In this document: piece by piece, positions 2,370-18,600 of the stretch
Layout: every line of letters begins with the position of its first letter
Position numbering within the stretch: the first letter of the stretch is position 1
Assembly: GCF_002934605.1 (NCBI RefSeq)
Contig: NZ_PTJC01000005.1
Coordinates: 682,001-746,000, forward strand
Direction: 5' to 3'
Origin: Neolewinella xylanilytica
GTDB taxonomy: Bacteria > Bacteroidota > Bacteroidia > Chitinophagales > Saprospiraceae
DNA length: 64,000 nt
The notes under the pieces: generated by a model
The model's database searches: none
What the model saw: only the letters and a program-made list of their open reading frames with translations
What the model was told of the DNA's origin: nothing
Made by a program: the position numbers and the translations under genes

Positions 2370-2434
2370 GCAAGGTCTTGCCACGAGCTCCGCCGATCGG
2401 TGACTCGGGTCAGCTACCCGGGTGATATAAATCA
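2370..2434 (-). promoter_or_regulatory. Paired FixK-like box promoter of ccoS-ccoNO
   Basis: Distal box TGATATAAATCA at 2423-2434, proximal box TGACTCGGGTCA at 2401-2412 (starts 22 bp apart), 23-nt gap, octamer GACCTTGC at 2377-2370, then the ccoS ATG 20 nt on. The distal box lies inside the 3' end of ccoI and the proximal box overlaps its stop codon. The layout matches the seven other modules in the window exactly, which is the main support. Confidence 0.75.
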
Positions 2435-4812
2435 TGTCGGTAAAGGAGGTAAGCGCCCGTACTGGCCACCAGCACGATCGTGATCGAACTGGCCGGCATG
2501 AGGATGGCGGCTACCACCGGACTGAGTGCGCCGGAAACCGCATAGCTGAGTCCGACGAGGTTGTACAGGAGCGCCAGGCCGTACGCGATTCGGGTCACCC
2601 AGCGGAGGCGCCGGCAGGTCAGCAGTACGGAGGGCAGAAATCCTAAACGGCGGGCCGAAACGATGGCGTCGCAGGCGGGGCTGAAGGCCGATTCGTCTTC
2701 ACTGACCGCCATCCCGACGTCCGCCGTACGCAGCGCGCCGGTGTCGTTGAGGCCGTCGCCGACCATCAGTACCCGGTTACCGCTGCGCTGCAGGTCTTCT
2801 ACGAAGGTCTGCTTCGTGAAGGGCGACATGCGGAAGTGTAGTTGATCGGCCGGGAAGTAGGCTTCCCAAAAATTGTCCTTCGGCGGATCGTCGCCGGAAA
2901 GGAGGTATACCTTACCCCGGGTTGAGAGCTCCCGGAGTGCTCCCCGTACGCCGGGACGTAAACGGGGCGGTCGGGTGTCCAGCCGGAGCACCGCTTTTCC
3001 GTCCACCGTGGCGTACGTTCCCGGAGGAAGGTCCTGGAGCCCACAGAAGTCGGCACGGCCAACGCGGTACACCCGCCCCCGCCAGCACAGGTGGAGTCCT
3101 CGCCCTTCCTCCTCGGCCGGGGCGGTGGTAGTTGGTGCCTCCATTCCTTCGGCGGCCAGGGCGGCGGCAATCGCCTGGCTGCGGGGGTGGGTGGAATACC
3201 GGCACATGGCCAGGAAGACCGGCGCTTCCCCCTTCCGTGAGGAATCCATCCAGGTAAGGGCGTGTCCAACACCGGAATCGATAAGGGTCCCCGTTTTGTC
3301 GAAGACGAAGGTATTCACCCCGGCCAGCCGGTCGATGGTGGCCGCGCTACTCAGGTAGTAGCCGGCCCGTCCGAGCAGCCGCTGCAAACTCCCGTAGGCA
3401 AAGGGGGCCGCCAGGGCGATCGCGCAGGGGCAGGCGATGATGAGTACCGACACGGCCGCCCGGTAGGCGGTCGCCGGATCCGAGCGGTACCAAAATATAA
3501 ACGTACACAGGGCAATCAGGAATACGGCCCCGGTAAACACCCCCACCATCCGGTGCGGCGGCCCGACCGGCGCATCACCGGCCCGCCGCCCGTCGCGCCA
3601 CAGTTGCATGAGGTAGCTTTCGTCGGCCGACCGGGTAACCCGCAGGGTCAGTGCCTTTCCGGTCGCGCGGCCCCCGGCGAACACCGCCTGGCCCGGGGCG
3701 GTACGTTTCCGTTTGCTTTCCCCGGTCACGAAGCTGTAGTCGATGCCCGCGCCACTGGCCGCCAGCAGGATGCCATCGGTGGGGATAATCTGGCCGGGAC
3801 GTACGATCAGGACGTCGTCCGTCCGGACGTCCGCGACCGCTACGGCTTCGAGGTTGCCCGCTCCGTCGCGGCGGTAGGCTCCGATCGGAAAATAGTCGTG
3901 GTAATCGCGTTCGAAGGACAGCCGGGTGAAGGTATACGACTGAAACCAGCGTCCGATGAGTAAGAAGAAGACAAAGCCCGCCAGGCTATCCAGGTATCCG
4001 GAGCCACTCCCACCGGCGATCTCGTAAACGGACCGGCCGAAAAGGGCCAGCATCCCCACCACGATCGGAAAGTCGAGGGTGATGCGGCCGAGCCGGAGTC
4101 CGGTGTACGCATCCCGAAAGAACCCGGTGGCTGCATAAAATAGCACCGGCAGGCTCAACAGCAGCATGCCAGGCCCGATAGCCCTTCCGATAAGCGTTGC
4201 ACCTGCGTCCTCGCCCAAACCCAGATATTCCGGGAAACTGAGCAGCATGATGTTGCCGAAGCAGAAGCCGGCCACCCCAATGCGGTAGAGCAGCGACCGA
4301 TCGGCAGCCCCCGCTTGCCGCGTATCGGCTCGCCTCAGCACCGGCGGATATCCGATGTCGGCGAGTAATTCGGCAACGGCCCGTAAGGTGGTTTGGCGGG
4401 GATCGAATTCGATGGTTGCCCGTTTGCGGGTCACGTCCACCTGGCTACGCCGTACACCAGGGAGCAGGTTGGGAAGCCGCTCGAGCAGCCAGACGCAGGC
4501 GATGCAGTGGATGGCCGGCAGCTCCAGCTCCACCCGCCATACTTCCTCGTCGTGGTAGCGGGCCAGCGTGGCGGCGAGGGCCTCCGTTTCCAGCCAGTCG
4601 TAATCGTCGCGTTGGTAACGGCGTTGGCTGCGTCCCGCGGCGGGGTCGAGGCGGTAAAAGTTCTCCATCCCGTGCTCGCGCAGGAGGGTGTAGACCGTGC
4701 GGCAGCCGGAACAGCAGAATCGGGGTACAGCGCCGGGGTGATCGCTTTCGGGGCAATCTTCCCCGCAGTGGGCGCACGTTGTTCGGACGGGCGGGGATAG
4801 GATATAGCTCAT
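2410..4812 (-). CDS. ccoI: Copper-exporting P1B-type ATPase for cbb3 oxidase maturation (CcoI/FixI)
   Basis: This 800-residue P-type ATPase delivers copper for assembly of the CcoN active site. An N-terminal cysteine-rich part (CAHC near residue 14, FCCSGC near 33) is followed by a metal-binding domain with CIAC near residue 105. The ATPase core shows TGES near 362, the CPC membrane motif near 459, the phosphorylation motif DKTGT near 504 and GDGLND near 687. The double Cys N-terminus and length are typical of CcoI rather than CopA. Its ATG overlaps the hemN stop by 4 nt (ATGA), so the two genes are almost certainly co-transcribed from the hemN promoter. Confidence 0.95.
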   Translation of the reverse strand: MSYILSPPVRTTCAHCGEDCPESDHPGAVPRFCCSGCRTVYTLLREHGMENFYRLDPAAGRSQRRYQRDDYDWLETEALAATLARYHDEEVWRVELELPAIHCIACVWLLERLPNLLPGVRRSQVDVTRKRATIEFDPRQTTLRAVAELLADIGYPPVLRRADTRQAGAADRSLLYRIGVAGFCFGNIMLLSFPEYLGLGEDAGATLIGRAIGPGMLLLSLPVLFYAATGFFRDAYTGLRLGRITLDFPIVVGMLALFGRSVYEIAGGSGSGYLDSLAGFVFFLLIGRWFQSYTFTRLSFERDYHDYFPIGAYRRDGAGNLEAVAVADVRTDDVLIVRPGQIIPTDGILLAASGAGIDYSFVTGESKRKRTAPGQAVFAGGRATGKALTLRVTRSADESYLMQLWRDGRRAGDAPVGPPHRMVGVFTGAVFLIALCTFIFWYRSDPATAYRAAVSVLIIACPCAIALAAPFAYGSLQRLLGRAGYYLSSAATIDRLAGVNTFVFDKTGTLIDSGVGHALTWMDSSRKGEAPVFLAMCRYSTHPRSQAIAAALAAEGMEAPTTTAPAEEEGRGLHLCWRGRVYRVGRADFCGLQDLPPGTYATVDGKAVLRLDTRPPRLRPGVRGALRELSTRGKVYLLSGDDPPKDNFWEAYFPADQLHFRMSPFTKQTFVEDLQRSGNRVLMVGDGLNDTGALRTADVGMAVSEDESAFSPACDAIVSARRLGFLPSVLLTCRRLRWVTRIAYGLALLYNLVGLSYAVSGALSPVVAAILMPASSITIVLVASTGAYLLYRHDLYHPGS

Positions 4813-6158
4813 ATGGCCTGGCTGAAGGTGGCCGGGCTGGGGTTGCGCGCCCAGTAGTGGTCGTCGAGGGGCAGGCAGATGTTGCGGAGGAAAGGTTTAC
4901 CCGCCTCGGTAACCTCGACCCGGTAGGGGGATCGGCGGACCAGGCCGTCGAGGGCCATATCGTTCCAGTGCAGGACGGCCCGGTCGATGGCGGAGCAACG
5001 CAGGGATTCCTCGTTCCAGTCGGTATACCCGATGCACATGAGGTTAAGGATGTGGCGGCGGACGGTGCCGTCTTCCGGAGCCAGGGCGTGCCCCTTGACG
5101 ATGGGCAGGCGGCCCTCCAGGAGCACCGCCCGCTGGTACGCTTCGACTTGTTTTTCGTTCTGCACGTACATGTCCCAGCTATCGCCGATCGCCGAACAGC
5201 CGAGGGCCAGGGTAACGGGCGTATTGGCGGTGGTGTAGCCCATGAAGTTGCGGTGCAGGCCGCCGGTGCGGTGGGCGATGGCCAGGTCGTCGGCGGGCAG
5301 CGCGAAGTGGTCCAGCCCGATGTCGTAATAGCCGATGGACTGCAGCAGCCGGCGCCCGGTCTGGTACAGTTGCCACCGTTGTTTGCCCTGGGGCAGGTCC
5401 GCTTCGGAGTAGGCGCATTGGCCGGGGCTATGCCAGGGCACGTGGGCGTAACCGTAGAAGGCGATGCGATCGGGGGCGAATTCCCCTACTTTCTCCGCCG
5501 TACGCACGATGTCGCTGAGCTCCTGCTTCGGCAGTCCGTAAATGAGATCGAAATTGATGGAGGTGTACCCGGCTAGTTGGGCCGCGCAGACGGTGCGGGC
5601 CACGTCCTCCTCCGTCTGCCGGCGGTTGATGAGCCGCATGATCTCCGGGTTGAAATCCTGGACGCCGAGGCTGACCCGCCGGAAGCCCCGGGCGGCCAGG
5701 GTGCTCAGGTGCTCGGCGGTAGTGGTGGCCGGATGGGCTTCGAAACCGAAGCTATAGGTGTCGGCCGGGGAGAGCCGCTCGAGAATGCCGTCGACCAGGC
5801 GGGCCAGGGCGTCCGGGGAGAAGAAGGTGGGGGTGCCGCCGCCGAGGTGCAATTCCTTGAGGTAGGGAGTCACCTCCAGCGACCGCAGGTAAAGGTCTAG
5901 TTCGGCATGCAGGGCGTCGATATAGGGTTCCTCAACGCCGTGGTTCCTGGTGATCCGTTTGTGGCAGCCGCAGTAGGTACACAGTTGCTCACAGAAGGGA
6001 AGGTGGAGGTACAGGCTGATGTCCCGCTCTTCGGAAAGGCGACGGTTTACGGCGCTAAGCCAGGCTTCCTGGCTGGGGGGCTTAGGCTGCCAGTAGGGCA
6101 CGGTGGGGTAGCTCGTATAGCGGGGGACCGGGCGGTTGTACTTTTCGATAAGACTCAC
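4809..6158 (-). CDS. hemN: Oxygen-independent coproporphyrinogen III oxidase
   Basis: A radical SAM enzyme that makes protoporphyrinogen IX without oxygen, supplying haem under hypoxia. It shows the KYNRPVPRYTSYPTVPYW start and the CxxxCxxC cluster (CEQLCTYCGC) that binds the 4Fe-4S centre, and at 449 residues is normal for HemN. I place the start at GTG 6158 (MSLIEKYN), matching family N-termini. A longer reading from TTG 6179 would put the coding start inside the predicted -7 element of its promoter. It is first gene of hemN-ccoI and overlaps ccoI by 4 nt. Confidence 0.93.
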   Translation of the reverse strand: MSLIEKYNRPVPRYTSYPTVPYWQPKPPSQEAWLSAVNRRLSEERDISLYLHLPFCEQLCTYCGCHKRITRNHGVEEPYIDALHAELDLYLRSLEVTPYLKELHLGGGTPTFFSPDALARLVDGILERLSPADTYSFGFEAHPATTTAEHLSTLAARGFRRVSLGVQDFNPEIMRLINRRQTEEDVARTVCAAQLAGYTSINFDLIYGLPKQELSDIVRTAEKVGEFAPDRIAFYGYAHVPWHSPGQCAYSEADLPQGKQRWQLYQTGRRLLQSIGYYDIGLDHFALPADDLAIAHRTGGLHRNFMGYTTANTPVTLALGCSAIGDSWDMYVQNEKQVEAYQRAVLLEGRLPIVKGHALAPEDGTVRRHILNLMCIGYTDWNEESLRCSAIDRAVLHWNDMALDGLVRRSPYRVEVTEAGKPFLRNICLPLDDHYWARNPSPATFSQAI

Positions 6159-6176
6159 GGAGCGCCGAATTTTTTT

Positions 6177-6242
6177 CAAAGGTGGCCGTATCGCTACCGC
6201 CGGAACGGTGACGCGTGTCGTGGCGGGGGATGATCTATGTCA
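6177..6242 (-). promoter_or_regulatory. Paired FixK-like box promoter of hemN-ccoI
   Basis: Read on the minus strand: distal box TGATCTATGTCA (6231-6242), proximal box TGACGCGTGTCG (6209-6220; last base deviates), 24-nt gap, octamer CACCTTTG (6184-6177), GTG start at 6158. The same two boxes, with roles exchanged, serve the divergent plus-strand promoter. Confidence 0.65.
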
Positions 6243-6273
6243 CTCCACGGGGGGGCGGCAACGGTGACCTTTG
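6209..6273 (+). promoter_or_regulatory. Paired FixK-like box promoter of the DUF6544-phosphoketolase operon
   Basis: Distal box 6209-6220, proximal box TGATCTATGTCA 6231-6242, 23-nt gap, octamer GACCTTTG at 6266-6273, then ATG at 6292. The octamer fits the Bacteroidota -7 element at TTTG. The expected transcription start (about 6278) lies downstream of the alternative upstream ATG at 6271, which supports the later start codon. Confidence 0.75.
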
Positions 6274-6291
6274 TGGTATGCTCCCCTGCCT

Positions 6292-7428
6292 ATGCGCACC
6301 TTCCTATTCCTGCTTCTGGCCGTGCACGGCCTACTCCATCTCCTGGGCTTTGCCGCCGCCGTCGGGTATTCCGGTGGAGAATTCACCCTCTTTATCTCCC
6401 GTAGCTGGGGGCTGGGCTGGTTGGCCATCGCCGGCATCCTGCTGTCCGCCGCCGGCTTCCTGGCCGTACGCCATCGTCACTGGTGGACCGCCGCCGGCGT
6501 GGGGGTAGTGCTCTCCCAGATCCTGGTCCTTCGGTTCTGGGTGGATGCCAGTTTCGGCACCATCCCGAACCTGCTGATCCTTGCCTGCCTGGTGGTCACG
6601 TACGGCGCCCGGAAGTTCGACCGGAAGGCGGAGCGCAGCCGGCGGCAACTGCGGAGATCCGTAATCCCCACCCCGGCCCGTACCGACGAAGCCCTGCCCC
6701 CCGTAGTCCGCCGGTGGCTAGCGCGCAGCGGAGCCCTGCACCGTCCGACGCCGTCGTTCCTTCATCTGGAGCAGACACTGGCAATGCAGCTGAAGCCCGA
6801 CCAGCAAATCTGGTACACGGCGGAGGCCACCCAGCTCATTACGGCATCGCCACCCGCCTTTCACTGGGCGGTGCAGGTCCATATGCACCCGCTGCTGACC
6901 GTATACGGAGAGGATAGCCTGGTTAGCGGCCGCGCGGCTATGCGGATGTCGCTGTTCGGGCTGTTGCCGGTGAGCGAGGTACACGACGACGCCAAGGTAG
7001 ACGAGGCAGCCATGCAGCGCTACCTGGCGGAGTTGGCCTGGTTCCCGGCCGCCGCGCGCAGTGCCCCTATCGAATGGGAAGCTTTGGGAGACCACGAAGC
7101 ACGTGCCACCCTCCGGTTGGGGAAGCAAACCGCGTCCGGCATTTTTTCCTTTACCCCCGCCGGCGATTTTCTCCGCTTCGAAACCCGACGTTACCGGGAG
7201 CACGGCCCGGAAGCACAGCGCCTGCCCTGGATCGCGGAAGCCGAGCGATGGGCGACCTTCGACGGGATCCGTGTCCCCTCCCGGCTGCGGGCCAGCTGGA
7301 TGCTCGACGGCAGCATATGGACCTGGCTGCGCATCGAGGTCACCGATCTCCAACAAGCCGATTCCGTAAATGAGCCTGACCCAACCCCGCAGCGCACCAG
7401 CCGCCCCGATCTCCAGTTACACGATTGA
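6292..7428 (+). CDS. Membrane protein with DUF6544/DUF6920-like domain
   Basis: This protein of about 378 residues has four N-terminal membrane helices (roughly residues 1-105) and a soluble C-terminal domain. The soluble part contains the [11 protein letters not shown] segment and a repeated beta pattern that I recognise from the uncharacterised DUF6544/DUF6920 family; no reaction is known to me. It starts 10 nt before the phosphoketolase gene and shares its low-oxygen promoter, so a role in the same response is inferred. I chose ATG 6292 rather than 6271 because the promoter octamer overlaps the earlier codon. Confidence 0.7.
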
Positions 7429-7438
7429 AACAAACCCT

Positions 7439-9796
7439 ATGAGTAACCCTACGACCGATAGCCTGCAATTGCTCGACGCCTACTGGCGCGCGGCGAATTA
7501 CCTCTCCGTAGGGCAGATGTACCTCTGGGATAACCCCCTGCTGCGCCGCCCCCTACGCCACGCCGACCTGAAGCCTACGATCGTGGGCCATTGGGGCTCC
7601 GCGCCCGGCCAGAACTTCGTGTACGTCCACCTCAACCGCATCATCCGACAGTACGATCTGAACATGCTGTACATCTCCGGTCCGGGCCACGCCGGCCAGG
7701 CCATGGTGGGCTGCACCTACCTGGAGGGCACCTACTCCGAGGTGTATCCGGACATCAGCCAGGACGAAGCGGGCCTCAAAAAGCTCTTCCGGCAGTTCTC
7801 CTTCCCCGGCGGCATCGGCAGCCACGTATCCCCCGAGTGCCCGGGCAGCATCCACGAGGGCGGGGAGCTGGGGTATTCCCTCAGCCACGCCTTCGGGGCG
7901 GTTTTCGATAATCCCGACCTGATCGCCGCCTGCGTCATCGGCGACGGCGAGGCCGAAACCGGCGCCCTGGCCACCGCCTGGCACGGCAATAAGTTCCTGA
8001 GCCCCGCCACCGACGGCACCGTCCTCCCCATCCTCCACCTCAACGGCTACAAGATCGCCAACCCCACCGTGCTGGCCCGCATCAGCCCCGAAGAACTCGA
8101 CGACCTTCTGCGCGGCTACGGCTGGACGCCCCACTACGTCGAAGGCGACGATCCGGAGGTGCTGCACCGCGTCATGGCCGACACGCTGGACGCCATCACG
8201 GAGGACATCCTCAACATCCGCCGCCGGGCCCGCGACGAAGGGGATACCGACCGCCCCCGCTGGCCGATGATCGTGCTGCGTACCCCTAAGGGATGGACCG
8301 GACCGAAGCATGCCGGCGGCCACGCCATCGAGGGGACCTTCCGCGCCCACCAGGTGCCCATTACGATCGGCAAGAACGACGACGACGCCCTGCGGCAGCT
8401 CGAGGAATGGATGCAGCGCTACCGCCCCCACGAGCTTTTCGACGAGCAGGGAAAACTCCGCCCCGAACTGGCGGCGCTGTCCCCGGAAGGAGCCCGCCGC
8501 ATGGGATCCAACCCCCACACCAACGGCGGGCAGTTGCTGGAGGACCTGGACCTGCCCGACTACGCCGACCTGGCCGTGGACGTACCCGCACCGGGGCGCG
8601 CCACGGCCGCCGATACCGAGGTGCTGGCCGGCTACCTACGCGAGGTCATCCGCCGCAACGCCGACCGGCGCAACTTCCGCATCTTCGGCGCCGACGAAAC
8701 GCTGTCCAACCGACTGGCCCACGTCTTCGAGGCCACGCAGCGGCAGTGGACGCTGCCCACCGCGGAGCACGACCAGTACCTGGCCACCGACGGCCGCGTC
8801 GTGGAGATGCTCAGCGAGCACCAGTGCCAGGGCTGGCTGGAGGGCTACCTACTCACCGGCCGCCACGGCTTGTTCAACAGCTACGAGGCCTTCATCCACA
8901 TCGTCGATTCCATGGTCAACCAGCACGCTAAATGGCTCAAGCTGACCGCGGAGCTCCCGTGGCGCAAGCCCCTCGCCTCCCTGAATTACCTGTTGGCCTC
9001 CCACGTCTGGCAGCAGGCCCACAACGGCTTCACCCACCAGGATCCCGGCTTCATCGACCACCTCGTCAACAAGAAGGCGGCGATCGTGAGGGTGTACCTT
9101 CCCCCGGACGCCAACTGCCTGCTCTCCGTCTGGGATCACTGCCAGCGCAGCCGCCACTACATCAACGTGGTCATTGCCGGCAAGTACCCCGCCCAGCAGT
9201 GGCTTGACATCGAAGCCGCCAAGGCCCACTGCGCCGCCGGTATCGGCTGCTGGGATTGGGCGGGCTGCGGTACCGACGTCGAGCCGGACGTGGTACTCGC
9301 CTGCTGCGGCGACGTGCCCACCCTGGAGACGCTGGCCGCCGTCAGCATCCTCCGCGACTACCTGCCGGACTTGCAGGTACGCGTGGTCAATGTAGTGGAC
9401 CTGATGAAGCTCCAGGCTCCCACCCAGCATCCCCACGGACTGGAAGAGGCGGAATTCGATACCCTCTTTACCCGCGACCGCCCCGTCATCTTTGCTTTCC
9501 ACGGCTATCCCTTCCTCGTGCACCGGCTGGTCTACCGCCGGCACAACCACGGTAACTTCCACGTCCGCGGCTATAAAGAGGAGGGGGCCATCACCACCTC
9601 CTTCGACATGACGGTGCTCAACGAACTGGATCGCTACCACCTCGCGCTGTCCGCCCTGCAGCACCTGCCGGAGCTGGGACGCGAAGGGGAACGGGTGCGG
9701 GAAGCCCTCGAGGGTAAACTGGCTACCCACCGTACGTACGTAGAGGAGCACGGGGTGGATATGCCGGAGGTGCGCGATTGGCATTGGACGTCCTGA
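7439..9796 (+). CDS. xfp: Phosphoketolase (xylulose 5-phosphate / fructose 6-phosphate)
   Basis: This 785-residue thiamine diphosphate enzyme splits xylulose 5-P or fructose 6-P into acetyl phosphate plus a triose or erythrose 4-P. The family signatures are clear: [29 protein letters not shown], a GDGEAETG thiamine-binding motif and [17 protein letters not shown], and the length is that of the full Xfp family. With acetate kinase (not in the window) it would yield ATP without respiration, which fits its place behind a promoter of the oxygen-responsive type. It follows the DUF6544-like gene after 10 nt. Sequence cannot tell single from dual substrate use. Confidence 0.95.
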
Positions 9797-9852
9797 CCGG
9801 GCCCCGCTCCTGCGCGCCGGCGCCCCGCTTAGGAATGCCAGCCCTACGGAGA

Positions 9853-9917
9853 TGACCTGTTTTATGCCTGCCGATGATTCAGATCATCGTTCGGCGGCAT
9901 GGTAAGACGGAGCTTTA
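9853..9917 (+). promoter_or_regulatory. Paired FixK-like box promoter of the first usp gene
   Basis: Proximal box TGATTCAGATCA at 9875-9886 lies in a longer perfect palindrome (7-bp arms CGATGAT/ATCATCG). The distal position 9853-9864 keeps only the half site TGAC. After a 23-nt gap comes octamer GAGCTTTA (9910-9917), then ATG 9939. Confidence 0.75.
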
Positions 9918-9938
9918 GGAAAACCAACCCGTTCCGTC

Positions 9939-10460
9939 ATGCAAGAAGTTATTGTCCCCGTAGACTTTTCACCCGCCTCGGCAACCGCCCTGCGCTTTGC
10001 CGCCCGGTTGGTGGAAGAATCCGGTATGCAGCTGCGCGTCATTTATCCGTACACCTCGCTGGTCTGCCGTGCCAGCTACGAGCGAAGTCCGGACTACTAC
10101 CTGCGCCGCCTCGAGGTGGCCCTTACCGCCTGGGTGAGCCAACAACTCGGCCCCCCCTACGATGCCGGGCGGGTGGATGTCCGGGTAATCGACAGCGACC
10201 CGGCCGCCTACCTGCTCGCCTCCAGCCAGGAGGCTACGGTGGCCCTGATCGTCATGGGTCTGCCCGAACACCACGAGGGGGGTGGCCGCCTGCCAACGCA
10301 GGCGCTGAGTGAAGCCATCACCGCGGGCGGTGGCTGCCCGGTCATCCTGATTCCGGCCGGCTACGAGGAGCTGGCCGCCACCCAACTGGCCGCCCCCCTC
10401 TGCGGCCGGCAAAGCAAAACCTACCGCCGCCGCAGTCGCCTGCCCGCCGGACTATCCTGA
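9939..10460 (+). CDS. Universal stress protein, single UspA domain
   Basis: This 173-residue cytoplasmic protein begins with the IVPVDFSPAS segment that opens Usp domains and ends the domain with CPVILIPAGY near residue 145, followed by a basic tail (KTYRRRSR). The nucleotide loop after IVMG does not show the G-2x-G-9x-G(S/T) pattern, so ATP binding is doubtful. Its promoter is one of the eight paired-box modules, and it is convergent with the next usp gene across a hairpin terminator. Confidence 0.9.
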   Translation: MQEVIVPVDFSPASATALRFAARLVEESGMQLRVIYPYTSLVCRASYERSPDYYLRRLEVALTAWVSQQLGPPYDAGRVDVRVIDSDPAAYLLASSQEATVALIVMGLPEHHEGGGRLPTQALSEAITAGGGCPVILIPAGYEELAATQLAAPLCGRQSKTYRRRSRLPAGLS

Positions 10461-10479
10461 TCGCTTTGTACCGGATATA

Positions 10480-10512
10480 AAAAAGGCCGGGCTCCCCGTA
10501 GGCAGCCCGGCA
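10480..10512 (-). terminator. Rho-independent terminator of the minus-strand usp gene
   Basis: Inverted repeat GCCGGGCT/AGCCCGGC (10486-10493 and 10504-10511) with a 10-nt loop. On the minus strand the stem is followed by a run of T. On the plus strand there is no T run, so it mainly serves the gene at 10540-11442. Confidence 0.75.
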
Positions 10513-10539
10513 TACATTTACACGGATCGACTATATTCC

Positions 10540-11442
10540 TTAGCTCCCGGCCATGGCATCCATTCCGGCTTCCTCCGCCGAAGCGTTTACCACCACCTCA
10601 TCGGTGAGGATCAGCAGGGGCAGGGGGGTGTGCAGCGCAGCATCCCGGGTGCGGCTGCCCTTCGAAAGCCGGTTCAGCCAGCCGCGTTCCGGGCGGTGCA
10701 TCACGACGAGTTGACAGTCGCGCTCACCGGCGAAGTCGAAGATGGCGCGGGTGACGTGCGGGGACTTGCGTTCGGTAATCGTGGCATGGTAGCCTTTGTC
10801 GGGGCGGTCGAACACTTCGCGGAGGAGTTCCAAGCCGTACTGGGGCACTTTGTCGTCGCCGGTCGTGATGTGGACGAAGTGCATCCTGGGGCTGAAGGGC
10901 CGGAGGGAGCGAAGCAGGCTTCCAGCCTGGAAGGGTGCGGTTCCCTGCAGGTCGGTGGCGAAGCAGATATCGCGGAGCGGCTGGTAAGTAGCCTGTTCGG
11001 GTACGATCAGGATCGGGCAGGGCGCGCGGTTCATGAGGACGCTGGTGTTGGTGCCGAGCAGGTCGTCCCAGGCACCCTGGCTACCGGTGGTGCCCATCAC
11101 GATCAGGTCGTTCTTTTCCCGTTGCACCTGCCGGCGGATGGAATACCGGAGGTCGCCGATCTCGACGTACGTCTGGATGGCGGGGACGTGGCGGAGCTTC
11201 CCCGCTTCCAGGGTGAGCCCCTTGCGGTAGAAGGCGAGCAAATCCTGGCGGGAGTTGTCGATCATCAGGTCGGTGACGTTGACGAAGGAACCGTAACCGG
11301 GGGCGGAAACGGCCGGCGGTAGGGCGAAGAGCAGATGGATCGCCGCGTCCAGTTCGTCCGCCAGCCGGAGGGCATAGCGGTAGGCGTTCATGGCGGCGGG
11401 GGAGAAGTCGGTGGGTACGAGAATGGATTTGACGGGCTTCAT
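10540..11442 (-). CDS. Universal stress protein, tandem Usp domains
   Basis: This 300-residue protein has two Usp domains. Domain 1 (about 1-150) starts ILVPTDFSPAA and carries a complete nucleotide-binding loop G-TT-G-(9)-GT after IVMG. Domain 2 (about 155-290) is shorter and ends PLLILTDE. Tandem Usp proteins of this size are typical of Bacteroidota. The gene is divergent from the usp at 11738 and each has its own paired-box promoter in the shared 295-bp gap. The final residues (NASAEEAGMDAMAGS) form a low-complexity tail. Confidence 0.9.
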   Translation of the reverse strand: MKPVKSILVPTDFSPAAMNAYRYALRLADELDAAIHLLFALPPAVSAPGYGSFVNVTDLMIDNSRQDLLAFYRKGLTLEAGKLRHVPAIQTYVEIGDLRYSIRRQVQREKNDLIVMGTTGSQGAWDDLLGTNTSVLMNRAPCPILIVPEQATYQPLRDICFATDLQGTAPFQAGSLLRSLRPFSPRMHFVHITTGDDKVPQYGLELLREVFDRPDKGYHATITERKSPHVTRAIFDFAGERDCQLVVMHRPERGWLNRLSKGSRTRDAALHTPLPLLILTDEVVVNASAEEAGMDAMAGS

Positions 11443-11465
11443 GGCTTGCGTGCTTTAGTGGACTC

Positions 11466-11530
11466 CCAAGTTGAAGGCTTCGGATTGTCCGTGCGCTGAT
11501 CGAGATCAGCCGACCCGATGATCTGGATCG
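11466..11530 (-). promoter_or_regulatory. Paired FixK-like box promoter of minus-strand usp
   Basis: Proximal box TGATCGAGATCA at 11497-11508 (perfect TGATC-N2-GATCA), distal box TGATCTGGATCG at 11519-11530, 23-nt gap, octamer CAACTTGG at 11473-11466, ATG at 11442. Confidence 0.75.
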
Positions 11531-11627
11531 CCTCCTTGCCGGTTACCGGACCCAAACGGGGCGGTGGGGCGGCGGCGCGCGGGAGCGATAGCCACCCTGG
11601 ACCGGGAAAGCGGATATGGCATCCACC

Positions 11628-11692
11628 CGATAAGCATCATCGCCGGCCATGATCTACATCACCGCGGAGCTCCCGCTGCGCCGTGATCTTTA
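11628..11692 (+). promoter_or_regulatory. Paired FixK-like box promoter of the usp-lipoprotein-usp operon
   Basis: Distal box CGATAAGCATCA (11628-11639), proximal box TGATCTACATCA (11650-11661), 23-nt gap, octamer GATCTTTA (11685-11692), ATG at 11738 after a longer leader of about 40 nt. Confidence 0.75.
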
Positions 11693-11737
11693 CCGGACCG
11701 ACAACGGACGTTCACTTCCGTCAAAACCGACCTAAGC

Positions 11738-12538
11738 ATGCAACATATCCTCATCCCTACCGATTTCAGCCCCGCCGCCGCCCGGGCGATTGCCTACGGC
11801 AGCCTACTGGCCCGCGAGTACGGTGCCAAAGTCACCCTGGCTTACATCCACAGCATGCCGATGGACCCGATGCGGATCGGCGAGGTCAGCTCCGAACTCT
11901 ACCGCGACGGGGAGGCGCTGCTCGAAGACCACGCCGAGCAATTGCGGGCCGAAGGCCTGACCGTAGACACGGAGGTTCAGCTCGGTACGCCCGTATCCCG
12001 CCTCAAAAGCATCATCCTCAAACGGCAGGTCGACCTCGTCGTAATGGGATGTCAGGGCCGGCACCACGTAGCGTCGAATCTTTTCGGCAGCACCACTACC
12101 TCCCTGATGGAGGAAGTGACCGTGCCGATCCTGGCCGTCCCCCTGAACTACCAGCCCCGGAAACCCGAGCGCATCCTATGGGCGGCCGACAGTAAGGTGC
12201 CGAAAGGTTCCGCCATGCTGGAGCCCATGCTCGAGTTGGCCGAACGTAGCGGTAGCGAACTGCAGGTATTCCACTATCAGGAAGCCGACGAGCGGGAGCT
12301 CCCCGATCCGAAATTCAAGGAACTGCTGGCTGACGTCTCCTGCGATATTTACGTACAGGTGGACAACGGACTATCCGTGGATATCGCCATACGCGACTTC
12401 GTGGAAAAGACGGGGGTCGACCTCATTACGGTCATCCACCGTCGCACGGGCTGGCTCAATCGACTGGCGGTCGCTTCCTCCACTCGCAGAGCCGTCTTCA
12501 CCTCAGCGGTACCCATTCTCATTCTCCAGGAAAAATAA
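11738..12538 (+). CDS. Universal stress protein, tandem Usp domains
   Basis: This 266-residue protein starts ILIPTDFSPAAA. Domain 1 has a full nucleotide loop G-CQ-G-(9)-GS (GCQGRHHVASNLFGS) followed by VPILAVP. Domain 2 is degenerate but keeps the shared LDLITVIHRR-like strand (here VDLITVIHRR) and ends VPILILQEK. It heads a cluster usp-lipoprotein-usp with gaps of 11 nt and an overlapping stop/start, so these three are probably co-transcribed. Confidence 0.9.
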   Translation: MQHILIPTDFSPAAARAIAYGSLLAREYGAKVTLAYIHSMPMDPMRIGEVSSELYRDGEALLEDHAEQLRAEGLTVDTEVQLGTPVSRLKSIILKRQVDLVVMGCQGRHHVASNLFGSTTTSLMEEVTVPILAVPLNYQPRKPERILWAADSKVPKGSAMLEPMLELAERSGSELQVFHYQEADERELPDPKFKELLADVSCDIYVQVDNGLSVDIAIRDFVEKTGVDLITVIHRRTGWLNRLAVASSTRRAVFTSAVPILILQEK

Positions 12539-12549
12539 GCCGCGCTACC

Positions 12550-13299: not shown

Positions 13300-14174
13300 T
13301 GACCTTATTCATGCAACAGATAATTGTACCCGTAGATTTCTCCGATACCAGCGCGGCCGCCTTGCGCTTCGCTACGTATTTAGCGGAGGTGATGGATCTT
13401 GACCTCCGGGTGGTCCACGTTTTCGATTCCCTGGTGAGTGTGGCCCAGACGCTCCGGCCGGAAACCAGGGAAAAAGAGCGCAACCGGCTGGAAAGCGAGT
13501 TGACCGCCTTCGCCCGGAAGCATACGGAGCCCGTACTGGCTACCTTCCAGGGCAACCTGGACAGTCTGCCGGTGCTCCGCGCGACGGCCGTGGAAGGTCT
13601 GCCAGCGGCTACCTTGCTCGGGATTAGCGAGCGAGAAGAAACGGCACTAATCGTGATGGGCGGGGTAGGGTCGGGACAGGGGCTGCGTCCGCCGGGTATT
13701 TTCGGGAGCGTGGCCCGCAATCTTGCTACCCGCGGTGGCTGTCCGGTGCTGCTCATTCCCAAGGATTCCGGGTTTCCCGCGGTGGAACGGATGGCCGTCG
13801 CGTTCGAAGAGCCGGCCGACTTGCGCACCTTTACCCCCCTGCTACGCCCATTGATCCGGGGTATCCGCCCCGCGGTGCGTTACGTCCACGTACTCGATGA
13901 GGACGAGAGCCGGGAACGGGACCGAAAAGAGGAATTCGTAGTGGTTTCCTTCGGTCCCGATTTTCCCAGCTACACCTACACCTTTGACGAATTACCGCCC
14001 GGCAGGGTAGTGGACCGGCTGGTGACCTACACCTCCGAAAAGCAAATCGACCTGCTCGTAGTCGGGCGAAAGCGCCGGTCGTTCCTGGAACGTCTTGTTC
14101 ACCCCGATCACCTCTCTCCGGTGGTTAGAGCGGGTTCCGTTCCCCTGCTGATCATTCCCTTTCTCGGTGATTGA
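13299..14174 (+). CDS. Universal stress protein, tandem Usp domains
   Basis: About 290 residues. The start could be ATG 13299, which overlaps the previous stop, or ATG 13311, which gives MQQIIVPVDFS and matches the usp at 9939. Domain 1 ends CPVLLIPKD near residue 150. Its glycine loop (GGVGSGQGLRPPGIFGS) is two residues longer than the consensus G-2x-G-9x-G(S/T). Domain 2 keeps IDLLVVGRKRR and VPLLIIP. The stop codon overlaps the distal box of the promoter of the next usp gene. Confidence 0.9.
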   Translation: MTLFMQQIIVPVDFSDTSAAALRFATYLAEVMDLDLRVVHVFDSLVSVAQTLRPETREKERNRLESELTAFARKHTEPVLATFQGNLDSLPVLRATAVEGLPAATLLGISEREETALIVMGGVGSGQGLRPPGIFGSVARNLATRGGCPVLLIPKDSGFPAVERMAVAFEEPADLRTFTPLLRPLIRGIRPAVRYVHVLDEDESRERDRKEEFVVVSFGPDFPSYTYTFDELPPGRVVDRLVTYTSEKQIDLLVVGRKRRSFLERLVHPDHLSPVVRAGSVPLLIIPFLGD

Positions 14175-14236
14175 TCAAGATCATCCGAAGCGGTGACGCC
14201 CAACACTCCAACGGGAGCGATGGGAACGGAACTTTG
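14172..14236 (+). promoter_or_regulatory. Paired FixK-like box promoter of the last usp gene
   Basis: Distal box TGATCAAGATCA (14172-14183, perfect TGATC-N2-GATCA), proximal box TGACGCCCAACA (14194-14205, weaker), 23-nt gap, octamer GAACTTTG (14229-14236), ATG at 14257. Here the strong box is the distal one. Confidence 0.75.
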
Positions 14237-14256
14237 AGTAAACCAACCCGCCAACC

Positions 14257-15168
14257 ATGACGCACATTCTCATTCCCGTCGATTTCAGCCGCGCCTCCCA
14301 CAACGCCTACCGCTACGGCCTGCACCTGGCCGAGCGCCGGGGATTGCACGTCGTACTGGTGCATTACTACAGCGGCTCGATCGATCCGCGCACCAACCTG
14401 TACATCGGTGGCGACGGGACCATCCAGGGGAGTTTCGAGGCCAGGTTACGGGAGTTCGCCTATTCGAAGGGAGCCTACGGTGACTTGCTGGCCGTAGAAC
14501 CACCCACCGGGGTAGAAGTTACCTACGAGGCCGACGTGAGCCTCCGGCCCGCCTTTGCGATCGGTAAACGGGCGGAGCAGCCGGACATCAGCCTGGTCGT
14601 GATGGCCTCCCGCAGCTCCGAATCGGTGCTAGGAAAATGGCTCGGCAGCACGACGACTACCGTTTCGGAAAGTTGCGACTGTCCCGTCATGATCGTTCCC
14701 CCGGATGTCCGGCACCGCCCCATCCGGGAGGTCGTAGTCGCCAACAATCACGATACCGCCGATCCTGCTCCCCTGGCCTACCTCGAGGAATTATCCGACC
14801 TCTACGGTGGCAGCCGCGTCCATTTCGTGCACGTGGAACGCCTGAATGCGGACGGCGACACCACCTTCGTACCCTGGAAGTTGATGCAATTGATCAAGCG
14901 CCGTGACGCCGGGGCCGGCTTCCCCTTCGAGGTGGTCACGGTCCAGGACGACGACATCAGTGAGGGGCTGCTGAATTTCGCGAACGGTATCGATGCCGAC
15001 CTGATGGTAGTGGTCAACCGGTCGCGGAAACGGTGGCAAGCCTTTTTGCAGGCCACCCTTACCCAGGATTTAGCGCTGCGTTCCACCCTGCCGGTGCTGG
15101 TACTGCACGCCCAGTCGGCCGAGAACCCGCGGGGCAACTACCAATTCGATCACCAAAAAGAAGCCTGA
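14257..15168 (+). CDS. Universal stress protein, tandem Usp domains
   Basis: This 303-residue protein begins ILIPVDFSRAS. Domain 1 ends with the loop ASRSSESVLGKWLGST (the first Gly is Ala and the second Ser, GS kept) and CPVMIVPPD. Domain 2 starts near residue 155 (IREVVVANN), keeps DADLMVVVNRSRK and ends LPVLVLHAQ. It has its own paired-box promoter and is followed 2 nt later by a lipoprotein gene, repeating the usp-lipoprotein arrangement seen upstream. Confidence 0.9.
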   Translation: MTHILIPVDFSRASHNAYRYGLHLAERRGLHVVLVHYYSGSIDPRTNLYIGGDGTIQGSFEARLREFAYSKGAYGDLLAVEPPTGVEVTYEADVSLRPAFAIGKRAEQPDISLVVMASRSSESVLGKWLGSTTTTVSESCDCPVMIVPPDVRHRPIREVVVANNHDTADPAPLAYLEELSDLYGGSRVHFVHVERLNADGDTTFVPWKLMQLIKRRDAGAGFPFEVVTVQDDDISEGLLNFANGIDADLMVVVNRSRKRWQAFLQATLTQDLALRSTLPVLVLHAQSAENPRGNYQFDHQKEA

Positions 15169-15170
15169 TC

Positions 15171-15935
15171 GTGCGGCTCCCCATGCTCCTCCTGCTGATG
15201 CCGCTCTTCTGGTCCGTTGCCTGCAGCGAGGAACAGATCGTCACCGGGGTAGCGGCCGAATCCGCTTTCGTCCGACTCCTTTACGGGCTTACCCACCGGG
15301 ATACGCTGGCCAGTCAGATCGCGGCAACCGAGCTCAACGCTCACCTGCGTTCCCTGCGAACGGTAGGGTACCGCCCGCTGGCCGATGCCGACCTGGATGA
15401 GCGCATGTACCGTTTCGACCGGGCGGAATGCGCCTTTCTGGAGTCCCTGGCATCCATCAACGGCGGAGAACTCGATCTGGCCGCCGTCCAACTCGACCAG
15501 GCCGTATACGAAGTCCGGGCCGCAGACCCCCCGGTATCCGCCGAGCTCTACGTGCTGAACCTGTATGACTTCATCGGGGCATGGCTCGAAGTGGGTACGC
15601 TTTATGCGGACCGGGACGCATTCGTCCAGGAAGGAAGGAACTGTGCGGCAAACGCCCTGCGGGAGTGGGCCTCGATCCGGTATCTGCGACCGGATCCCGT
15701 TGTCTATCCCTCCATTGCCCGGAATCCGCTCCCCTTTCTCGAAGCCCACCTGGCCCTGGAAAGCCGTTTGCGGGAGGTGGAGGGTTTCGTTCACCGCAAC
15801 GATGCGATACCGGAAGCCGTGATGAGGGGCACCAGCGAGGCGCTGTGGAACGTACTCTTACTCTTCGGTGGCGGTGAAACCGCCCGCACTACGCCGAAAG
15901 CGGGTTCGAACACGGTTACACCAGCAGCCCTCTGA
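15171..15935 (+). CDS. Unrecognised lipoprotein following usp
   Basis: About 254 residues from GTG 15171 (MRLPMLLLLMPLFWSVAC), with a lipobox-like WSVAC at residues 14-18; ATG 15183 is an alternative start. The mature part is helical without recognisable motifs, and ends in a Thr/Ala-rich tail. Its GTG lies 2 nt after the usp stop, so it is co-transcribed with it. Its 3' end overlaps the convergent response regulator gene by 20 bp. No function can be given; the neighbourhood suggests an envelope component of the same stress response. Confidence 0.75.
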   Translation: MRLPMLLLLMPLFWSVACSEEQIVTGVAAESAFVRLLYGLTHRDTLASQIAATELNAHLRSLRTVGYRPLADADLDERMYRFDRAECAFLESLASINGGELDLAAVQLDQAVYEVRAADPPVSAELYVLNLYDFIGAWLEVGTLYADRDAFVQEGRNCAANALREWASIRYLRPDPVVYPSIARNPLPFLEAHLALESRLREVEGFVHRNDAIPEAVMRGTSEALWNVLLLFGGGETARTTPKAGSNTVTPAAL

Positions 15936-16962
15936 GCCTGGCGGGCTCGGCAACCGTGATCTGGCGGCCGTCGGTAACGATCAGCCCATCGCGCCGAAAA
16001 TCGGAGAGGGCGCGAATCACGCTTTCCTTCGTCGTTCCGACCATTTGGGCCAGTTCTTCGCGCGACAATTCGATGGCTGTTTCCCCGTACCGTTCGTGCA
16101 GGTCGCAGAGGACCAGCGCGGTCCGGCGGCGCACGCTGTCGTAGGCTTGCTGCACCAGGCGGTCGGACCGTTCAACGGTTTCACCGGCGAGCAGGTGCAT
16201 CAGCGCCTCGGCTACGTGCCGGTCTTGGTTCACCAGTTCCAGTAGCCGGGGGCCGGGTAGGCGGGCACAGCGCACGGTTTTAGTGGCTGCCCGGGCGGTA
16301 TAGTACAGGGGGATGCGTTCGAGGAGGCAAGCGGTGCCGAACAGGTCACCGGGCCCCAGGTCGGCGATGATGTAATCGCGGCCGTACTCGTGGGTACGGG
16401 TGAGGTGGACGTGCCCCTCCTCAATGCGGTATAAAAAATGCGGGTACTCTCCGTCGCGGGCAATGGTTTCTCCCTGATCGTACGTAAGCCGGTTGCCCTG
16501 GTCCGAAAAGGCGGCGAGTAGGGTGTCCATGCCCCTCCCGGGATCGCTGAGGTGAGCGGCGGCCGGGGCGGTGGCCGTGCCGCCGCGGGCGGCCTTCTTC
16601 AGGCGGGTCCGGATGACCTGCAGTAGCTCGTCCTTGTAGAAGGGCTTGGTAATGTAATCGTCGGCGCCCAGGTTCATGCCGCGGCGGATGTCTTCCTTTT
16701 CCGTGCGGGCGGTGATGAATACGAAGGGGATTCCGGCCGTCTGGTCGTTTTCGGAAAGCAGATTGAGCACGCCGTAGCCATCCAGTTCGGGCATCATCAC
16801 GTCGCAGAGGATCAGGTCGGGCGCTTCGGTGAGGGCCAGCTTGACCCCTTCTAGTCCGTGGCGGGCGGTTGACACGCCATAGCCGTACAGCTCGAGAATC
16901 TCGGCGAGGTTTTCGCGTACCTCCTCGTTGTCTTCGATGATGAGGATATTCGTTTTATCCAT
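15916..16962 (-). CDS. Response regulator with Crp/Fnr output (REC-cNBD-HTH)
   Basis: This 348-residue protein is a fusion of a FixJ-like receiver with a FixK-like output. The receiver (about 1-125) has the acidic pocket E10/D11, phospho-acceptor D54 (ILCDVMMP), T84 and K106 (TKPF). A cyclic-nucleotide-binding-like domain follows at about 145-260 (GDLFGTACLL), then a Crp-type winged helix at about 270-345. The recognition helix TTKESVIRAL keeps the Glu (E313) and Arg (R317) that read the TGA core in Crp and Fnr, with Ile where Fnr/FixK have Ser. No N-terminal Fnr cysteine cluster is present. ATG overlaps the kinase stop by 8 nt (ATGGATAA). I infer it binds the paired TGAY-N4-RTCA boxes; that is not shown directly. 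Confidence 0.92.
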   Translation of the reverse strand: MDKTNILIIEDNEEVRENLAEILELYGYGVSTARHGLEGVKLALTEAPDLILCDVMMPELDGYGVLNLLSENDQTAGIPFVFITARTEKEDIRRGMNLGADDYITKPFYKDELLQVIRTRLKKAARGGTATAPAAAHLSDPGRGMDTLLAAFSDQGNRLTYDQGETIARDGEYPHFLYRIEEGHVHLTRTHEYGRDYIIADLGPGDLFGTACLLERIPLYYTARAATKTVRCARLPGPRLLELVNQDRHVAEALMHLLAGETVERSDRLVQQAYDSVRRRTALVLCDLHERYGETAIELSREELAQMVGTTKESVIRALSDFRRDGLIVTDGRQITVAEPARLRGLLV

Positions 16963-18151
16963 GGTTGGGCTGGTTGGAGAGGGAGACGGTAAAGGTCGTG
17001 CCCCGCCCGAGCTCGCTCCGGAAGTCGATGCTGCCCGATAGTAACTCGACGTAATGGCGCACGATGTTGAGCCCCAGCCCGGTTCCCTTGATGTTCTCCA
17101 CGTTGCCGGCCCGGAAGAAGCGATCGAACAGATGGGGCCGGTCCGCCTCCGGGATGCCGATACCCCGGTCCTCCACGGAGATAAGGATCCGGTCGCGGGC
17201 GGCTTCCGCGCGGACGACGATCGGGGCACCCTCCGGGGAATATTTGGCGGCGTTGGAGATGAGGTTCATCAGGACGTGCCGCAACAGCTTGGCGTCGGTG
17301 TATACCGTCCTGACCGTCTCTTCCACGACCATTTCCACACGTTGTCCGGGGCGGAGCTGCCCTTCGCTCGTCTCGATGCTGGTGGCCAGTAGCGCCCGCA
17401 CGTCGATGGAATGTTCGTTGACGGTCACTTCCCCCTGATCGAGTTGGGAGAGGGAAAGGAAGTCGTCGAGCACTTCGGTGAGCTGGCTGACGGCCGATTT
17501 GATGCGGTCCAGGTGGCGCAGGCGTTTGGGTTGCTGCTCGGCTTCCTGGTAGAGTTCGATAATTTCCGCCGAGCTGAGCACCGTGCTCAGCGGCGTCTTG
17601 AATTCGTGGCTGGCCATGCTCAGGAAGCGGCTCTTAAGCTCGTTGAGCTCCCGTTCGCGGCCGAGTGCGCGTTTGAGCTCCACTTCCCGGGCCCGGAGGG
17701 CCGCCGTCCGGTCCTGTACTTTGTTTTCCAGTTCCCGGTTCAGCTCATTGACCCGGTCCTGGGCCTTGTGATATTCGGTGAGGTCGTGTAGAATGCCGGT
17801 GTAGAGCACCCCGTTGTCCAGTTTGACTTCGCTGACCGCGAGGCGTAGGGGGAATTCCCGCCCGCTCTTACACCGCCCGATCACTTCCCGCCCGATCCCG
17901 ATGATGTGGGGTTCCCGCGTACGCTGATACCGCTGGAGGTAGGCGTCGTGGTGTACCCGGTCGTGATCGCCCATCAGCATGTTGACCTTTTGGCCCAGCA
18001 TCTCGGCTACGGTGTAGCCGAAAAGGTCGGCGGCGGCCTTGTTGGCATTTTCGATTACGCCCCGCCCGTTCATGGTGATGATGCCGTCGGTGGCCATTTC
18101 GAAAAGGGCCTTTAGCCTGCGTCCGTCATCCTGCTCCGTGGGGGGTGCCAT
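16955..18151 (-). CDS. FixL-like oxygen-sensing histidine kinase (haem PAS)
   Basis: This 398-residue kinase has a PAS domain at about 14-130, a coiled linker and a full HisKA/HATPase core: H-box SHEFKTP (H182), N-box NLISNAAKYSP (N300), DRGIGIP and GTGLGLNIV. The PAS domain follows the FixL pattern closely. H68 in the HDAYLQRY segment aligns with the haem-ligating His200 of Bradyrhizobium FixL, and R74, H82 and R88 (PHIIGIGR) with its Arg206, His214 and Arg220. No membrane helix is visible, so it is predicted cytoplasmic. Related PAS domains can keep this pattern without proven haem, so oxygen sensing is a strong inference. It is co-encoded with the REC-Crp regulator. Confidence 0.88.
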   Translation of the reverse strand: MAPPTEQDDGRRLKALFEMATDGIITMNGRGVIENANKAAADLFGYTVAEMLGQKVNMLMGDHDRVHHDAYLQRYQRTREPHIIGIGREVIGRCKSGREFPLRLAVSEVKLDNGVLYTGILHDLTEYHKAQDRVNELNRELENKVQDRTAALRAREVELKRALGRERELNELKSRFLSMASHEFKTPLSTVLSSAEIIELYQEAEQQPKRLRHLDRIKSAVSQLTEVLDDFLSLSQLDQGEVTVNEHSIDVRALLATSIETSEGQLRPGQRVEMVVEETVRTVYTDAKLLRHVLMNLISNAAKYSPEGAPIVVRAEAARDRILISVEDRGIGIPEADRPHLFDRFFRAGNVENIKGTGLGLNIVRHYVELLSGSIDFRSELGRGTTFTVSLSNQPNHG

Positions 18152-18187
18152 TTTCTTTATTTCGACCTACGGCGAAGGTAAGAAAGC

Positions 18188-18224
18188 GGGGCGGCTCCGG
18201 GAGGGTTTTCCATTCTGCCGCCCC
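18188..18224 (-). terminator. GC-rich hairpin between the small membrane protein gene and the kinase gene
   Basis: Arms GGGGCGGC (18188-18195) and GCCGCCCC (18217-18224). On the minus strand it is followed only by a short pyrimidine stretch, so it may be a weak terminator that partly separates the kinase operon from the upstream gene. Confidence 0.4.
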
Positions 18225-18277
18225 GGGAACAAGTGAGTGCTTTGATATTCCGGCGAAAACGTCGTTAGCAAAGTCGG

Positions 18278-18511
18278 TTAGGCTGCCTTTTCGAGCTTGC
18301 CTTGCTTGGCCTTCGCCAACGGGAGCACCTTGGAATCCGCGAGAACCGGGACTTCCGGCTTGAAGCTGATACCCAGCACCGCGCTGAGGAAGAGGGGGAG
18401 GGCCAGTCCGGCGATCAGGTAGTATCCGCTGAACATACCCAGCAGTACCACCCCCATCATCAGGTAGAAGCGAATGACGACTTTATCGAAGGTGATTGCG
18501 TAGAAGCGCAT
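18278..18511 (-). CDS. Small two-helix membrane protein of the paired-box regulon
   Basis: This 77-residue protein has two probable membrane helices (about residues 15-30 and 32-48) separated by a GYY turn, and a charged Lys-rich tail (AKAKQGKLEKAA). I do not recognise the family. It is worth annotating because its promoter is one of the eight paired-box modules and it lies just upstream of the FixL-like kinase on the same strand. A longer reading from 18625 would run through both boxes and is rejected. Its role, perhaps in membrane adaptation or in cbb3/regulator partnership, is unknown. Confidence 0.7.
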   Translation of the reverse strand: MRFYAITFDKVVIRFYLMMGVVLLGMFSGYYLIAGLALPLFLSAVLGISFKPEVPVLADSKVLPLAKAKQGKLEKAA

Positions 18512-18535
18512 GGCTGTATTCGTTTGGTGATGGGA

Positions 18536-18600
18536 CAAAGATGCCGCCACCGCCGCGGGCAGGAAATGACCCGGATCACCGCCATCCATGATTTGTAACA
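18536..18600 (-). promoter_or_regulatory. Paired FixK-like box promoter of the small membrane protein
   Basis: Distal box TGATTTGTAACA (18589-18600), proximal box TGACCCGGATCA (18567-18578), 23-nt gap, octamer CATCTTTG (18543-18536), ATG at 18511. Read-through into the kinase and regulator genes would give feedback control. Confidence 0.75.

Follow-up and report, generated by a model that had tools for sequence, protein, structure and literature searches.

Within a 64,000-nt stretch of the Neolewinella xylanilytica genome (GCF_002934605.1, contig NZ_PTJC01000005.1; hereafter the window, within which all positions are counted), genes for a cbb3-type oxidase, hemN, phosphoketolase and universal stress proteins (Usp, usp genes) form an island in which pairs of FNR/FixK-type boxes stand upstream of the genes. 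This locus raises the question of whether the pairs belong to one promoter module and, if so, which protein reads it. The first part can be answered directly, as a fixed-geometry promoter module common to the island promoters is real. On the second, it is likely, judging from the sequence, that the module serves as operator and promoter of a microoxic regulon, in which a FixL-like kinase would activate a receiver-CRP response regulator (REC-Crp) whose dimers would occupy both boxes.

The box was parsed as the 12-mer TGAT-N4-ATCA, with the general form TGAY-N4-RTCA, and scored out of 8. The island contains seven box pairs, with starts at 2401/2423, 6209/6231, 9853/9875, 11497/11519, 11628/11650, 14172/14194 and 18567/18589, and the start-to-start spacing is 22 bp in 7/7. 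The proximal box is followed by an octamer after a gap of 23 nt at seven island promoters and of 24 nt at hemN. The original prediction had described eight promoters of the same geometry; the promoters are eight but the pairs only seven, because hemN on the minus strand and the DUF6544-xfp genes on the plus strand use one pair (6209/6231) in opposite directions. Reading and extracting the sites bore out every box start given there, as well as the spacing and the gap at all listed island promoters. TGATC-N2-GATCA, previously named as the best box, is one filling of it and was rejected as the true motif in favour of TGAT-N4-ATCA, as the four central bases are weakly constrained in a profile of 65 modules from the genus.

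A chance pattern was rejected on three sets of counts. In the window, six perfect boxes (8/8) were found against 0.25 expected under a first-order Markov model, a model that is too low for weak boxes also (233 against 130 expected at 6/8), and five of the six lie inside the island. In the organism's own 5.38-Mb genome, with the pattern searched backwards as the control, the pair pattern (TGA-N6-TCA-N10-TGA-N6-TCA) occurs with at most one mismatch at eight places against three in the control; seven of these correspond to the island pairs, and the remaining one falls within overlapping long open reading frames (ORFs). The full module, defined as the pair plus the -7 core at gap 23, is present with at most two mismatches at 11 places against none in the control. 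All six one-mismatch matches and one of the five two-mismatch matches are the island's seven 23-nt promoters, while the hemN promoter, with its gap of 24, falls outside the pattern. The four matches outside the island are not counted as regulon members because each carries two mismatches and shares part or all of its length with ORFs of 100 amino acids or more. The contention that such constant spacing is hard to get by chance thus holds for both the pair and the full module, and the genome-wide scan did not return the outcome named beforehand as fatal to it, a module equally frequent in coding DNA.

The geometry is conserved in relatives. Thirty-one stretches from the genus were analysed, of which L131-L135 had been fetched because they already showed pairs, and the flanking stretches L121, L125 and L128 sit where pairs had been listed; spacing and offset were therefore recounted on the other 23 stretches (443 kb), which had not been chosen for their pairs, and all 31 were used for octamer forms, partner counts, gene assignment and the 65-module profile. 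With both boxes at 7/8 or better, spacing 22 accounts for 22 pairs in the 23 stretches, and no other spacing between 10 and 70 for more than two. The octamer lies 23 nt from the proximal box in 48 cases, 24 nt in seven and at any other offset below 100 in at most two, and is present at 23 or 24 in 42 of 48 modules. Across all 31 stretches, 34 pairs at spacing 22 and 65 octamers at offset 23 were counted, and the first ten relatives' stretches, fetched before any pair search in relatives, gave eight pairs at 22 and at most one elsewhere. The longer hemN gap recurs in part: among eight hemN-like genus modules, three (the window, L047 and L116) have a gap of 24 and five a gap of 23.

Beyond the genus, REC-Crp was the sole criterion by which 80 named Bacteroidota loci (the best 80 of 583) were selected. 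Their TGAY-N4-RTCA pairs number 27 at spacing 22, 12 at 23 and 12 at all remaining spacings from 10 to 70 combined; pairs with both boxes perfect (two at 22, one each at five other spacings) are too few to tell. The octamer is present in 45 of 62 modules, with 46 at offset 23, seven at 24 and at most five elsewhere. Among the matches listed for ten of 61 genomes of the family (131 places, with strands merged and two rows of G257 left out), spacing 22 accounts for 22 and the next most frequent, 36, for 11, and three of the ten genomes have no place at spacing 22 among those matches. When two perfect boxes were allowed any gap from 4 to 34 in 79 genomes of the order, 18 of 37 places had spacing 22, and the exact pair was found at 321 places in 122 of 198 order genomes, compared with three in the backwards control. 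A general phylum-wide feature was rejected, as the exact pair occurs in 51 of 395 phylum-sample genomes, 44 of which belong to the same class as N. xylanilytica.

The -7 box of sigma-A promoters in Flavobacterium psychrophilum is given as TAnnTTTG at -12 to -5 (PMC9723704). The octamer matches this consensus apart from its first T, which is replaced by G or C at 66 of 75 genus sites; of 110 sites from outside the genus, 76 keep this T. Judged by this match, the octamer is a variant of the usual sigma-A -7 box of Bacteroidota. A novel -7 element was accordingly discarded as a candidate, and of the common -7 octamer described earlier, the sharing and the fixed gap stand. If the octamer sits at -12 to -5 as in Flavobacterium, the boxes would centre at -41.5 and -63.5, and the box-to-octamer distance is constant in both the genus stretches and the named loci. 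The proximal box would then be a class II site with an abutting second site at -63.5, and the departure from the classical -41.5 position implied by the original prediction would fall away.

Class II CRP/FNR-dependent promoters have a site centred at -41.5 and need no -35/-33 element. By the Flavobacterium octamer position the module would resemble them in both respects, and it differs in its spacing-locked second site at -63.5, near obligate in the genus, and in the Bacteroidota type of its -7 element. The profile of 65 genus modules contains no -33 element, and the predicted +1 is a purine in 50 of 65; both features would be anticipated for a class II promoter that depends on an activator. 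Whether a site activates or represses does not follow from its position alone, and the boxes could instead be repressor or dual sites of the same regulator, occupancy at -41.5 blocking polymerase in oxygen. We regard this as very improbable: -41.5 is the classical activating position, the targets are microoxic-respiration genes, and the missing -33 element points the same way.

The candidate regulator is encoded in the island itself. The gene at 15916-16962 (minus strand) encodes a 348-amino-acid protein with REC, cNMP_binding and HTH_Crp_2 domains (Pfam), the proposed reader of the pairs, and overlaps by 8 bp a gene for a PAS-HisKA-HATPase kinase whose PAS domain is, by sequence, of the FixL haem type (16955-18151, minus strand). 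In an alignment of 25 regulator sequences, D54 and K106 of the receiver and E313 and R317 of the recognition helix are invariant. No FNR-type 4Fe-4S cysteine set is conserved in this alignment, in which the only invariant cysteine, C53, lies inside the receiver, and an Fe-S FNR was rejected as the identity of the regulator. PAS residues 12-141 of the kinase match FixL chains and structures (E 1e-29); the HD.Y His and the IIGIGR Arg, which in FixL bind haem and sense oxygen, both align.

Furthermore, the regulator and the pair occur together. With a match at E 1e-40 defining a REC-Crp carrier, the exact pair is present in 94 of 126 carriers versus 28 of 72 non-carriers in the order, and in 38 of 56 carriers versus 13 of 339 non-carriers in the phylum sample (p 4e-28, species kinship inflating such p-values). 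In the genus, 18 of 18 carriers exceed the control in pairs with at most one mismatch (260 versus 55 in total). The complete genome G147, from the same genus and without REC-Crp, has five pairs versus five in the control and only a 22%-identity partial match to CcoNO, which would fit a single loss of the entire system. The remaining genus non-carriers, G209 (four versus three in the control) and G210 (eight versus three), say little because these genomes are incomplete (88% and 55%, respectively). In some relatives modules precede the REC-Crp or kinase genes, which suggests autoregulation there. The earlier proposal that REC-Crp reads the pairs is supported by the co-occurrence at genus, order and phylum level, to the extent that this protein appears to be the best candidate.

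Several observations nevertheless weigh against reading the module as a paired operator of REC-Crp. Some concern the geometry. With at most two mismatches, the pair pattern occurs at 109 places in the own genome versus 56 in the control, mostly outside the island and unexplained; this excess reflects either a further set of weak pairs or a control too low for this codon usage. No spacing peak was found in nine family loci around REC-Crp (one pair at 22, two at 54), and in the named loci 62 of 111 sites with proximal box and octamer lack a partner scoring 5/8 or better 22 bp away, nine of the 111 having a partner of at least 6/8 at 23 bp. The absence of partners at these sites would fit a module in which only the proximal -41.5 box works and the second is left over from divergent promoters or plays a weak auxiliary part. 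The bidirectional pairs, in which two boxes are needed anyway, would fit it as well; of the pairs that have an octamer, 13 of 69 in the genus and 10 of 73 in the named loci are flanked by octamers on both sides. The other 56 genus pairs are one-sided, yet 45 of 49 genus sites with a good proximal box and octamer keep a partner scoring 5/8 or better 22 bp away (other spacings average 1.6), and in the 65-module profile the distal box carries as much information as the proximal one, although the modules in this profile had been chosen by the summed score of the two boxes. We therefore consider a module with only one working box improbable. As the corresponding count in the named loci is 49 of 111 (5.3 on average at other spacings), the pair is close to obligate in the genus and common, not universal, elsewhere, so that the earlier description of an obligate-looking pair is upheld for the genus but not across the phylum.

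Other objections concern the reader. Besides REC-Crp, HTH_Crp_2 scores above the Pfam cut-off at four places in the own genome, two of which contain an internal stop, and TGAT-N4-ATCA is also a generic FNR/FixK half-site. The 28 order and 13 phylum genomes that have the exact pair without REC-Crp imply either that the cut-off misses relatives or that another CRP/FNR protein uses the pair too, and, conversely, the exact pair is missing from 32 of 126 order and 18 of 56 phylum carriers. It is thus conceivable that the pairs are read by another CRP/FNR-family protein, Fe-S FNR-like or cAMP-CRP-like, to which the REC-Crp gene is a mere neighbour. We judge this unlikely, though with an appreciable chance: it sits poorly with the co-occurrence at all three levels and with the modules before REC-Crp or kinase genes, and G147 retains two other HTH_Crp places over the cut-off, yet shows no excess of pairs. 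A last objection touches the signal. When the 69 best PAS matches from the 80 named loci were tested for the FixL-type motif, only 20 passed, and the input signal may therefore differ between lineages. At least two PAS types occur in these loci (L167-L246), mostly just upstream of REC-Crp, one FixL-like (IIGIGRE) and one MGxGRDL-like; the second often keeps a His at a similar place and may also bind haem.

Returning to REC-Crp dimers on both boxes as the preferred reading, we propose the following course of events. Loss of oxygen from the haem-PAS domain of the FixL-like kinase would relieve the kinase, which would then phosphorylate Asp54 of the adjoining REC-Crp regulator. Dimers of the active regulator would occupy the two abutting boxes, and, as the original prediction proposed from the 22-bp spacing, both would sit on one helical face. 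The proximal dimer, at about -41.5, would stand in for the missing -33 element and, acting as a class II activator, touch sigma-A RNA polymerase. The distal dimer, at about -63.5, would stabilise the proximal one by dimer-dimer contact and/or touch the C-terminal domain of the polymerase alpha subunit; the conservation of the spacing suggests cooperative binding to the closely packed boxes. Because each box and the pair as a whole are near-palindromic, one symmetric pair can, on its sequence, serve two divergent promoters, as presumably at hemN and xfp in the window, with the roles of the boxes swapped. The predicted output of the regulon would be a cbb3 oxidase, hemN and universal stress proteins switched on at low oxygen. 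Runs of three consecutive boxes, 22 bp from one to the next and all scoring at least 6/8, were also observed (L132:9742, L135:9995, L161:1501, L179:7628 and L240:12004), those in L132 and L135 preceding a 469-amino-acid ORF, and suggest longer arrays of dimers.

The island modules directly precede end-target genes, namely ccoNO, which follows a small ORF at the place of ccoS, as well as hemN, DUF6544-phosphoketolase, four usp genes and a small membrane-protein gene; the names ccoS and small membrane protein rest on position and composition, as no family matched either. The ccoS-like/ccoNO promoter (minus strand) has its pair at 2401-2434, with the distal box TGATTTATATCA at 2423-2434 and the proximal box TGACCCGAGTCA at 2401-2412, and the octamer GACCTTGC at 2370-2377 (gap 23); the putative target is a fused CcoNO with subunits I and II of the cbb3 oxidase (40-2202, minus strand; NCBIfam). 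The pair common to the divergent hemN and DUF6544-xfp promoters (6209-6242, both directions) is flanked by the octamers CACCTTTG at 6177-6184 (minus strand, gap 24) for hemN and GACCTTTG at 6266-6273 (plus strand, gap 23) for DUF6544-xfp. Their putative targets are hemN, with a GTG start (4809-6158, minus strand; TIGR00538), and, via the DUF6544 gene just upstream (6292-7428), the phosphoketolase gene xfp (7370-9796, plus strand).

The four usp promoters all have a gap of 23. For the usp gene at 9939-10460 the pair lies at 9853-9886 and the octamer GAGCTTTA at 9910-9917 (plus strand); for that at 10540-11442 they lie at 11497-11530 and 11466-11473 (CAACTTGG, minus strand). The usp gene at 11738-12538 is preceded by a pair at 11628-11661 and the octamer GATCTTTA at 11685-11692, and that at 14257-15168 by a pair at 14172-14205 and the octamer GAACTTTG at 14229-14236, both on the plus strand. 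At this fourth usp promoter the distal box opens with the TGA (14172-14174) that terminates the usp gene before it. Lastly, the small membrane-protein gene (18278-18511, minus strand) has its pair at 18567-18600 and the octamer CATCTTTG at 18536-18543 (minus strand, gap 23). Elsewhere in the window, a further weak pair (6/8 and 6/8) starts at 23410/23432, away from any claimed promoter, and the perfect box TGATCAACATCA at 30978-30989 has no partner 22 bp away (2/8 on both sides).

In the named loci, the 85 distinct first ORFs behind modules, picked by a simple rule so that some will be wrong, include by Pfam 13 for cbb3 oxidase, 11 Usp, seven PAS histidine kinases, four each with Hsp20, P-type ATPase and ATPase metal-binding domains, and three each with REC-Crp, CBS and hemerythrin/ScdA. 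The ccoN-like modules have a feature of their own: a TTGC octamer was present in 7/7 found in the genus (2370-2377 of the window; L047, L053, L054, L121, L125 and L127), and C at the last octamer position occurs in only seven of 75 gap-23 genus octamers. These octamers resemble the Flavobacterium SM5 -7 box, given as TAnnTTGY in PMC9723704, and there may be a promoter-specific -7 subtype at ccoN-like modules; those listed for other lineages have TTTG or TTTA.

Among known systems, the alphaproteobacterial FixL-FixJ-FixK cascade (PMC4999443) offers a close set of components by sequence, with a FixL-type PAS kinase, a receiver, a CRP-family DNA-binding part without Fe-S cysteines, and FixK/FNR-like half-sites, and with such boxes before cbb3 oxidase and hemN genes. 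Unlike in that cascade, the receiver and the CRP-family part of the island regulator are in one protein, so that there is no separate FixJ and FixK, and the island has two boxes at fixed spacing and universal stress proteins among its targets. In the rhizobial hFixL-FxkR-FixK system (PMC4999443, PMC7888657), a FixL-type kinase is likewise paired with a regulator other than FixJ; there FxkR acts via FixK, whereas the island response regulator would itself bind the FixK-like sites.

Two hypoxia two-component systems, DevS/DosT-DevR (DosR) of Mycobacterium and OsdKR of Streptomyces (PMC3029386 and PMC5069765), provide a further comparison. DevR/DosR promoters have, like the island module as placed here, closely packed sites, a proximal site overlapping the -35 element, two sites for divergent promoters, and Usp and heat-shock targets, many of them clustered around the regulator; DevR/DosR also binds cooperatively to its second site, as is proposed for the island pair. 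DevR is, in contrast, a NarL-subfamily regulator with its own Dev box, whereas the island regulator is of CRP type with TGAY-N4-RTCA boxes. The island system would thus work like DevR/DosR but is no member of it, because output domain and motif differ, and the resemblance would be convergent. In the open-access literature searched, as far as its texts were accessible, we found no description of a Bacteroidota low-oxygen regulator or regulon of this kind, of tandem boxes or of receiver-CRP regulators.

Taken across lineages, we think it reasonably probable that many lineages of the class use a promoter code in which a CRP-family response regulator binds as two abutting dimers locked at -41.5 and -63.5 on a symmetric, sometimes bidirectional operator, with FixJ and FixK collapsed into one protein and a DosR-like tandem logic reached independently. 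The grammar of this code, two boxes 22 bp apart and 23 nt to the -7 box, is computable and can assign regulon members in new genomes, and its spacing-locked tandem sites would provide a system for the study of activator-activator cooperativity on Bacteroidota sigma-A promoters. The island would also show how a fusion can shorten the FixL-J-K cascade. For N. xylanilytica and its relatives, the module would tie universal stress proteins and the cbb3 oxidase to one switch.

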